Shown: positions 34,604 to 42,151 of the stretch, piece after piece
How the letters are laid out: each line of letters opens with the position of its first letter
How positions within the stretch are numbered: the stretch's first letter is position 1
DNA from: Patescibacteria group bacterium
GTDB lineage: Bacteria; Patescibacteriota; Patescibacteriia; Patescibacteriales; BM507
Direction of reading: 5' to 3'
Assembly: GCA_027858235.1 (NCBI GenBank)
Contig: JAQIDC010000031.1
Location: 1 to 45,279 of the forward strand
DNA length: 45,279 nt
Program-made: the position numbers and the translations under genes
Notes under the pieces: generated by a model
Seen by the model: the letters and a program-made list of their open reading frames with translations, nothing else
What the model was told of the DNA's origin: nothing
The model's database searches: none

Positions 34604-34699
34604 ATGTTGATATTCATTGGAACTATTGCAATATTCGCAATTGGATGGATTTGCTATTCACTGCATATTTTTTGCGAAGACTTGAAACATTATTACTAA
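34604..34699 (+). CDS. 31-residue membrane peptide, antisense to the atp operon
   Basis: A short frame (start MLIFIGTIAIFAIGWICYSL, end CEDLKHYY) forming one membrane helix and a short charged tail. A weak GGGA lies about six bases before the ATG. A strong plus-strand terminator follows 17 bases after the stop. It lies in the gap between atpG and atpD and points against the operon. It may be a mini-gene, part of a regulatory RNA, or a toxin-like peptide; nothing decides between these. Confidence 0.4.
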   Translation: MLIFIGTIAIFAIGWICYSLHIFCEDLKHYY

Positions 34700-34716: not shown

Positions 34717-34743
34717 GCCACCAGAAACTTGGTGGCTTTTTTA
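34717..34743 (+). terminator. Plus-strand terminator inside the atp operon
   Basis: GCCACCA (34717-34723) pairs with TGGTGGC (34730-34736), followed by T residues on the plus strand only. It therefore ends a plus-strand transcript and not the atp mRNA. Confidence 0.85.
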
Positions 34744-35835: not shown

Positions 35836-37365
35836 TTACTCTTTTTTAATTAAATAATCCAGGGTGTCTTTAAAATCATTAACAGCTTTTTCTAAACTAG
35901 CGTTAATTTCATCTGAAAGTTCACCTTTCTCTGCAATCTTTTTATAAACATCAGAATTATTCTCAACATATTTATACATTCCCGCTTCAAACTCTAATAT
36001 TTTTTCAACTGGAACATTGTCCAGTAAACCATTGATTGCTGCGTAGAAAATAGAAACTTGTTTTTCCATTTCAATCGGAGCATATTGACCTTGTTTAAAT
36101 ATTTCAATAATTCTTTCACCTCTATTTAGTTTTGCTTTAGTTTCAGCATCGAGATCTGAACCAAAAGCAGCAAAAGCAGCGAGCTCTCTATATTGAGCAG
36201 CTTCCAAACGCATCTTTCCAGCAACTTTTTTCATAGCCTTGGTCTGCGCCGCTGATCCTACACGTGAAACTGAAAGTCCAGCATTTACAGCTGGTCTATT
36301 TCCTTGATTAAATAAATCTGTTTCTAAATATATTTGACCATCAGTAATAGAAATAACATTTGTAGGAATATAAGCGGAAACATCACCGGCCTGTGTTTCA
36401 ATAATTGGAAGAGCCGTAATAGAACCTCCTCCAAAATCATCGTTTAGTTTACATGATCTCTCAAGAAGTCTTGAATGAAGGTAAAAAACATCACCTGGAT
36501 AAGCCTCACGTCCCGGAGGTCTTTTGAGTAGTAGAGAAATTTCTCTGTACGCTACAGCATGTTTTGATAAATCATCATAAATAACCAATGCGTCTTCACC
36601 CTTATCAAGAAAATATTCGGCAATTGCTGTTCCTGAATAAGGGGCAATATATGAAAGCGAAGCAGGATCAGAAGCACCAGCCAAAACTACAGTAGTATAG
36701 GCCATTGCTCCATTTTCTTCTAACTTTGCTACAATATTTGCAATTTTTGATTCTTTTTGTCCAATAGCAACATAAACGCATTTCATGTTTTGACCTTTTT
36801 GATTGATAATTGTATCAACCGCAATGGCTGTTTTACCAATCTGTCTATCACCAATAATAAGCTCACGTTGACCACGTCCAACTGGAATCATTGAGTCGAT
36901 TGCTTTTATTCCGGTTTGCACAGGTTCAAATACAGATTTACGAGTAATAACACCTGGAGCAATTTTTTCTATTGGATAAAACTTCGCTTCATTAATTTCT
37001 CCCTTGCCATCAATCGGTTGACCAAGAGCATTAACGACTCTCCCAACAAGAGCTTCACCTACGGGAACTTCTAAAATTCTTTTAAGAGCCTTAACTTCAT
37101 CTCCTTCTTTAATCCCAGAATATTCACCAAGTAAAATAACTCCGACTGAATCTTCTTCCAAATTCAAAACCACACCATTAATAAGACCATCTTTAGTGCT
37201 AAATTCAAGCATCTCCGACATCATAACATCAGAAAGACCTGTGACACGAGCAATTCCATCACCAATTTCCGCCACACGACCAACTGTTTGTTCTTGGCTT
37301 TCAGCCTTGAAATCAGAAATTTGTTTTTTTAACTGCTCAACAATAAAATCTTTAGTTTTACTCAT
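35836..37365 (-). CDS. atpA: ATP synthase alpha subunit
   Basis: A 509-residue non-catalytic F1 subunit. The P-loop is [13 protein letters not shown] (about residues 170-182); [20 protein letters not shown]-type sequence and LTDGQIYLE-type sequence (ITDGQIYLE) are conserved. The start ATG at 37365 has no SD. A 17-base segment containing this start is duplicated 122 bases upstream, with a REP-like palindrome between the copies. Confidence 0.97.
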
Positions 37366-37369
37366 ATAT

Positions 37370-37491
37370 TTTATAAATTGTTATATTATTAAATGGTTAA
37401 ATTGTTCCTCATTGTCATTCCGGGCTTGACCCGGAATCCAGAAAAAGAGATAGCAATTTAACAATTCAACAAGCTAGTTTTACTCATATAT
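37370..37491. mobile_element. REP-containing insertion upstream of atpA
   Basis: The direct repeat TAGTTTTACTCATATAT (37353-37369 and 37475-37491) flanks about 105 bases holding a REP-like palindrome and an outer near-inverted repeat (GTTAAATTGTT/AACAATTCAAC). The second copy carries the atpA start, giving a decoy frame of nine codons (MSKTSLLNC, 37487-37458) ahead of atpA. The layout is that of an insertion with target duplication. Confidence 0.6.
37411..37446. repeat. REP-like palindrome, family A copy 2
   Basis: TGTCATTCCGGG, CTTGA loop, CCCGGAATCCAGAAAA. The 8-bp stem is perfect (37417-37424 with 37430-37437). It is the same family as 15281-15311, in the opposite orientation. Confidence 0.8.
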
Positions 37492-37513
37492 ATTGACTTA
37501 TGTAATTATTTAA

Positions 37514-37723
37514 ATTAATTGTTCTTTAACATTTACTAGCGGAGGTGAAAATCATAAATCAAATGTCTATGACCCACTTGGACAAAGACCAGATGTACCA
37601 TGTATACAATGTGCAGCAGAGAAACGACTTCATCTTCTTGATCTTCTCACAAGAGAACTTAACAATGACCAAGTAAGAATAGTCTGTGAATTCAGTTCTC
37701 TCTCAAACATTGTAATAAAATAA
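37514..37723 (+). pseudogene. CxxC mini-protein, copy 1, without a normal start
   Basis: An open plus-strand frame without ATG, GTG or TTG that encodes HKSNVYDPLGQRPDVPCIQC, then AAEKRLHLLDLLTREL, up to a TAA at 37721. It aligns with the next gene (HK.N.Y, then P, CxxC, Leu-rich helix, Arg, FSL-like end). GGAGGTG (37541-37547) is a good ribosome-binding site but leads into another frame (ATG at 37563, 37 codons). Either the start was lost by a one-base change, or a frameshift joins the frames. Confidence 0.5.
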
Positions 37724-37775
37724 ATTTCAATTTATCTTATTCAACCAATCACCCTTTTAGACGAGGAGAAATTCA

Positions 37776-38024
37776 ATGTAAGAATCATGCATGGACCACA
37801 AAGCAAATCCTTATATTGAAAACCCTGCAAAACCATCAGAAGATTGTCATGAATGTTCCCACCTACTGGCTATGAAACTTATGCAAGATCTAAAACACTT
37901 TACTCCACCAGAGCACAGAGAAACCCTTGCTCAAATTTTTAGCCTTCATTGCCAAACTAGACATCTTCTGTTGCAAGAGAAGGACATGGCAATACAGCTT
38001 TATAACTTATCGGCAACTAGGTAA
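37776..38024 (+). CDS. CxxC mini-protein, copy 2
   Basis: A 77-residue protein from ATG at 37791 (MDHKANPYIENPAKPSEDCH, CxxC near residue 19, His-rich middle, a third Cys later). It looks like a small zinc-ribbon or treble-clef-type protein. The SD GAGGAGA (37764-37770) is spaced for the ATG at 37776, but that codon is directly followed by TAA. The coding frame is the same frame after this stop, so the protein must start at 37791 by re-initiation, or the gene has a nonsense change in codon 2. It lies on the plus strand between atpH and atpA, against the operon. A strong terminator follows. Confidence 0.6.
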
Positions 38025-38042
38025 AATTTTACCTATCTCACA

Positions 38043-38069
38043 AAAGGTATCGTTACGGTACCTTTTTTT
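38043..38069 (+). terminator. Terminator of the CxxC mini-gene pair
   Basis: AAAGGTATCG (38043-38052) pairs with CGGTACCTTT (38056-38065, one G-U), followed by more T residues. It ends the plus-strand unit at the edge of atpH. Confidence 0.87.
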
Positions 38070-38469
38070 ATTTTTCCAAAGAACGTCCTAAACTCTCTAT
38101 CCTGCCCCTTAAGCTATTATCAACTATTTTATCTCCGTACTTCAAAACAACTCCACCCAGGATACTCTTATCAACTGTTTCCTTTAAATGAACATCGGTT
38201 GCTTTCGTTGCTTTTTTAATATATTCAATAATTGATTTTTTACTTATTCCATCCAAATCTCTTGCCAATGTCACAGTCGCTTCAACAATCCCATTTTCTT
38301 TATTCCAAATAGCAGAAAATTCTTTCAAAATGCTATCCAATTTAGACATAGCATTGTTTTTTCTAAGCATATCAGAAAATCCAACAAGAAGAACAGAGAT
38401 TTCTTTTTCTGTTTTTCCTTCCACTAGGTCATATAATGCAATTGCATATTGTTTTGGACTTATTTTCAT
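38068..38469 (-). CDS. atpH: ATP synthase delta subunit
   Basis: A peripheral-stalk subunit, 133 residues from MKISPKQYAIALYDLVEGKT. The C-terminal block SILGGVVLKYGDKIVDNSLR, ending RIESLGRSL, is the family signature. The frame can be extended 20 codons upstream to 38529, but those codons are read from a REP-like palindrome and are not part of the family, so the ATG at 38469 is used. Downstream comes the plus-strand mini-gene unit. Confidence 0.92.
   Translation of the reverse strand: MKISPKQYAIALYDLVEGKTEKEISVLLVGFSDMLRKNNAMSKLDSILKEFSAIWNKENGIVEATVTLARDLDGISKKSIIEYIKKATKATDVHLKETVDKSILGGVVLKYGDKIVDNSLRGRIESLGRSLEK

Positions 38470-40968: not shown

Positions 40969-42151
<1,183 letters not shown>

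Follow-up and report, generated by a model that had tools for sequence, protein, structure and literature searches.

The 702-base gap between atpH and atpA in the ATP synthase operon of this genome holds two plus-strand open frames, referred to as copies A and B, and a plus-strand intrinsic terminator, all directed against the host operon. We consider, with moderate confidence, that these are what is left of a self-contained opposite-strand unit which was already at the junction in the ancestor of the BM507-like genus, if not earlier, is decaying here, and should be read through in the manner of a noncontiguous operon.

Organization of the atp locus

The window, by which we mean the whole 45,279-nucleotide stretch of DNA analysed, is contig C31 of a 1.43-Mb genome in 72 contigs. 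The atp genes lie on its minus strand in the order B-E-F-H-A-G-D-C, from which we infer a single operon. The features discussed below are listed in Table 1.

Table 1. Coordinates of features in and around the atpH-atpA gap
Feature	Position	Strand	Basis
Possible second opposite-strand mini-ORF in the atpG-atpD gap, 31 aa, hydrophobic (MLIFIGTIAIFAIGWICYSLHIFCEDLKHYY)	34604..34699	+	
Intrinsic terminator 3' of the atpG-atpD mini-ORF, -11.9 kcal/mol	34717..34736	+	
atpA (alpha subunit), host operon	35836..37365	-	
Direct repeat copy 1, overlapping the atpA start; putative target-site duplication	37353..37372	.	Empty site in BM507
MITE-like insertion of about 100 bp with terminal inverted repeats and a GTCATTCCGGGCTTGACCCGGAATCC repeat	37373..37474	.	
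Direct repeat copy 2, 19/20 identical	37475..37494	.	
TTGACT, resembling a -35 element, from the ancestral plus-strand promoter	37493..37498	+	Comparison with BM507
Copy A, open frame, CxxC at 37601-37612; probable pseudogene	37514..37723	+	Homology to BM507
GGAGGTGA, Shine-Dalgarno-like site ahead of copy A	37541..37548	+	By eye
Start region of copy B: GAGGAG Shine-Dalgarno 37763-37768, ATG 37776-37778, TAA 37779-37781	37763..37781	+	
Copy B, open frame ESCMDHK...CHEC..., Cys of CxxH at 37788-37790, CxxC at 37845-37856	37782..38024	+	
Intrinsic terminator of the plus-strand unit, U-run 38067-38075 on the plus strand only	38042..38066	+	Fold
atpH (delta subunit), host operon	38068..38469	-	

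The first-pass annotation had described the pair as splitting an otherwise compact atp operon. The gap at the H-A junction is real, but the description as compact fits only in part, since a second gap of 342 bp separates atpG from atpD and has a plus-strand terminator of its own. Terminator scans found no minus-strand terminator in the atpH-atpA gap.

Two further observations concern the same stretch of DNA. The MITE-like element sits at the atpA start codon between the two copies of a 20-bp direct repeat; the empty site is seen in BM507, and partial copies of the GTCATTCCGGGCTTGACCCGGAATCC core are present elsewhere in the genome. Two minus-strand ORFs at 40969-41811 and 41738-42097 abut, with Ser-Leu dipeptide runs (SLSLSLSL) in their overlapping ends; the run is a simple DNA repeat, and one of the two genes may owe a frameshift to it.

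Two related frames with broken starts

Copies A and B, of 69 and 80 codons, share the motif H(K)xNxY...P...CxxC followed by a helix, and two frames of such length were obtained in 0.8% of dinucleotide shuffles. Compared directly, the copies show weak similarity (BLASTP E 0.006; pairwise shuffles z 3.6), while each is clearly related to the two domains, r1 and r2, of a protein in BM507 (z 14-15 for A and 5.5-5.7 for B), which bears out the earlier claim that they are related.

The same annotation took them to be two plus-strand genes for mini-proteins. Related CxxC frames do lie between the minus-strand atpH and atpA, but they are probably not a pair of normal, intact genes. Copy A has no in-frame ATG, GTG or TTG, its first codon (37514) being ATT, and its CxxH pair lacks the Cys, only the His and the CxxC being retained. 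The GGAGGTGA ahead of it is apparently the counterpart of the Shine-Dalgarno sequence of the first short gene in BM507. In copy B, GAGGAG is followed after 7 bases by an ATG, and the very next codon is TAA. The sequence continues GAA TCA TGC ATG GAC CAC AAA, in which the Cys of the CxxH pair precedes the next ATG; the first usable ATG of copy B, at 37791, is therefore 3' of this Cys, the first of the putative zinc ligands.

Given the broken starts, both copies are probably pseudogenes. The frames are still open despite these defects, which implies that the decay is recent, that the starts are assembly errors, or that copy B is re-initiated at 37791. Re-initiation there, nine bases past the TAA, could possibly yield a copy B protein. 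We read the broken starts as recent decay rather than sequencing error.

Homologues within the order

A search with copy A identified two stretches (E 6e-6 each) in BM507, a genome of the same genus (PKTH01000036, a Parcubacteria bin), also on the opposite strand between atpH and atpA. Here, a single gene with a good Shine-Dalgarno sequence encodes both domains as a fused protein of 144 residues, and a gene of 51 residues lies ahead of it and overlaps it. The Shine-Dalgarno sequences and starts are intact and the unit closes with a strong terminator.

We also searched 111 genomes of the order with a profile built from four domains. Beyond the window genome and BM507, the only further credible match was an 80-residue protein of Falkowbacteria S3_17 (VMTK01000051), again on the opposite strand between atpH and atpA. 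Its homology rests on a core of about 30 residues (E 0.002, one genome), and pairwise shuffles yielded z 5.8 against copy B and 4.4 against copy A. The frames thus do have relatives, in BM507 and, more weakly, in S3_17, whereas the first-pass annotation had listed a complete lack of homologues among the findings that would speak against it. The check that it suggested, whether the proteins recur inside Patescibacteria atp operons, has a positive outcome for the position, which is the same in all three genomes, but these are only 3 of the 111 genomes of the order. The family is lineage-restricted and is not a general atp-linked family. The frames represent genuine protein relics.

When 381 genomes sampled from the class were searched with the profile, the further matches, inspected one by one, were all due to chance, and a broad CxxC family across the class was rejected. 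Copy B alone as query had no convincing match outside its own genome (60 relatives and the genome contigs searched). There was no significant family match in Pfam, NCBIfam or PHROGs, in agreement with the earlier remark that no such family has been described, and the phage search returned a single match with an E value of 0.6. A literature search for reports of atp-operon inserts in Patescibacteria returned none. Separately, the atpD-atpC gap of another genome of the order contains an opposite-strand gene for a small CxxC-type protein (MASYTVAIFFTCPECGHNNKAHRK...CKKCGAEL...), the similarity of which to the A/B family is borderline (p about 0.004-0.02 with r1, r2 and A).

Predicted fold and putative zinc binding

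An AlphaFold model of the first BM507 domain, based on four sequences, reached a pLDDT of 86. The irregular N-terminal part bears the CxxH and CxxC pairs and is followed by helices at residues 23-37 and 43-63. Searches with this model gave no fold match in the PDB and no match below E 4 in BFVD. The full BM507 protein folded poorly on its own (pLDDT 54), making its structural matches meaningless, and this model was discarded.

The arrangement CxxH...CxxC is present in r1, r2 and copy B, where the first Cys is upstream of the ATG at 37791, whereas the S3_17 protein and copy A are without CxxH. Zinc binding is putative, as suggested by the motif, and the protein would most likely have been a small zinc-binding adaptor or regulator. 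The best E values to zinc-ribbon families were 0.17 (LysW, NCBIfam) and 0.025 (a Lar-like PHROG), with one member each and neither significant, and no Pfam zinc family scored above the cut-off. Like the small zinc-ribbon and zinc-knuckle proteins with CxxC...CxxC, such as LysW/ArgW and Lar-like proteins, the 65-residue domain carries Cys/His pairs (CxxH...CxxC); unlike in these, there is no profile or PDB match and the second Cys pair leads into a helical hairpin.

Promoter remnant and predicted one-way terminator

The unit in BM507 is preceded by the promoter TTGACT-17-TATATT (10/12 match). The window has TAATTG instead of TATATT at the corresponding position, such that the -10 element is lost, and the TTGACT site falls below the pass mark in the promoter scan.

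At the other end, the plus-strand terminator reported by the first-pass annotation was supported, with a folding energy of -10.4 kcal/mol (z -5.25). In the window, BM507 and S3_17 alike, the terminator stem carries a U-G pair, which turns into an A-C mismatch on the other strand, and has a U-run on one side only. The stem in S3_17, AAGGCATC....GGTGCCTT, is near-identical to that in BM507. Because of the U-G pair and the one-sided U-run, the plus-strand fold is predicted to be the better one and the three terminators should act mainly in the plus direction; with a directional terminator, transcription of the atp genes should continue across the unit.

Gaps in the atp operons of the order

We examined the atp operons of 80 further genomes of the order, some of which were cut by contig ends. 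Gaps of at least 300 bp were found mainly at H-A (12/81) and G-D (16/59). Many such gaps contained small ORFs on the opposite strand, some with strong Shine-Dalgarno sequences, that were unrelated in sequence and coded for CxxC proteins, small membrane proteins and others. Pairs of opposite-strand ORFs were conserved between genomes at A-G, D-C, G-D and H-A, while one conserved same-strand pair represents, in our reading, a DUF559-like endonuclease. In the atpG-atpD gaps of S3_17 and of a genome from another family of the order, segments of a small opposite-strand ORF have been kept, with 65% identity over 35 residues.

The orientation of these units was assessed from terminators, for which we required a hairpin with a folding energy of at most -9 kcal/mol and a U-run after it. 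Of the 38 atp gaps of 300-1100 bp, 19 had an opposite-strand terminator and 0 had one on the operon strand, the sampled genomes spanning several families but being related, so that these counts are not independent events. The shuffled gaps contained terminators in 2 (opposite strand) and 5 (operon strand) of 114. Outside the atp operon of this genome, in about 445 kb made up of 400 kb of other contigs and the window, 52 comparable co-directional gaps had terminators on the same strand only in 12 cases, on both strands in 10 and on the opposite strand only in 2, giving a same-strand terminator in 22 of 52. A codon-usage gene caller trained on atp genes yielded no bias in ORF orientation in the gaps (10 opposite, 11 same), and the claim about orientation therefore rests on terminators rather than on ORF calls. 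The order has a wider habit of small backward units in the ATP synthase operon.

Comparison with the noncontiguous operon

The term noncontiguous operon refers to menE-menC-MW1733-ytkD-MW1731 of Staphylococcus aureus, a member of the excludon class (PMC7154746). As in that operon, a gene on the opposite strand is located between genes of one operon (PMC7154746), here between atpH and atpA in the window, where it looks broken, and in BM507, where it is intact. The opposite-strand mRNA would likewise be antisense, over its full length, to an untranslated stretch inside the operon transcript. Unlike in S. aureus, the host operon is that of the ATP synthase, the host belongs to an uncultured order of Patescibacteria, and the cargo consists of lineage-specific small proteins of many kinds. 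The likeness is one of gene layout, co-transcription and mutual regulation being predictions here. In layout, the locus is of the noncontiguous operon kind, which recurs in ATP synthase operons with varied small proteins.

Origin and possible role of the unit

In the explanation that we favour, the ancestral unit would have comprised a promoter, one or two genes for tandem domains of about 65 residues with CxxH/CxxC and a helical hairpin, and a one-way terminator. The atp polymerase would pass through it and the arrangement would work like a noncontiguous operon. In the window genome, decay would have cost the unit its -10 element, left copy A without a start and interrupted copy B at codon 2. 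If the unit affects the atp mRNA, it would do so in cis, through antisense pairing or through colliding polymerases.

The most serious alternative, to which we give a nearly even chance, is that the unit is passive debris. Small self-contained genes would often enter operons, and only the reversed ones would survive because their terminator spares the downstream operon genes, with no role for the ATP synthase. The lack of same-strand terminators in the atp gaps is what selection against polarity predicts, the cargo proteins are many and unrelated, and the unit is decaying in the window; its persistence at the same junction in the genus, and perhaps in a second family, is less expected. This account is compatible with the favoured explanation and differs from it on function only, and the confidences given here do not sum to one. 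It explains the orientation as well as a regulatory account does, and with respect to function we rate it above a regulatory role.

Such a role, which we regard as unlikely, would make the unit a functional noncontiguous operon with the plus-strand mRNA as a cis antisense regulator, cutting or blocking the atp mRNA between the Fo part (atpBEF, with atpH) and the F1 part (atpAGDC) and thereby tuning their ratio. The protein may then be secondary, so that starts can go while the frames and terminator stay. The conservation of unit and terminator at one junction in three genomes, the repeated appearance, in atp gaps throughout the order, of opposite-strand units that are unrelated and the precedent in S. 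aureus (PMC7154746) are consistent with regulation, but the -10 element was not kept in the window and most genomes of the order are without a unit at H-A (69/81 gaps <300 bp). A broader version, in which the order's ATP synthase operon is widely noncontiguous, is more doubtful: small and fast-changing opposite-strand genes at atpH-atpA and atpG-atpD would set the dosage of ATP synthase parts in cis, and the cargo may change or decay while promoter and one-way terminator stay.

It is improbable that both genes are intact and expressed, with the missing starts being errors introduced when the metagenome bin was assembled or polished. A single changed base would account for the TAA of copy B, the frames are otherwise open with the domain motifs retained, and Shine-Dalgarno sequences are located at both copies. 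An assembly error at the second codon of B is possible but would leave the defect of A unexplained, and several errors would be needed for two independent defects, the lost first Cys of A and the lost -10 element. Finally, a chance origin of the frames as ORFs in intergenic DNA is refuted by the BM507 homologue and has a negligible probability, for although they are AT-rich, short and startless, and the shuffle frequency of two such frames is not vanishing, independent homologues were found at the same place by both the copy A search and the profile.

If functional, the unit would provide these small-genome, mostly uncultured bacteria with an unusually simple way to tune the ATP synthase. If passive, it would show a way for operons to gain genes and stay whole, in that the only units tolerated are reversed ones whose terminators act in one direction. 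Either way, copies A and B and their homologues represent a new family of small proteins without a known fold, and the atp gaps suggest a testable orientation rule for insertion into essential operons.
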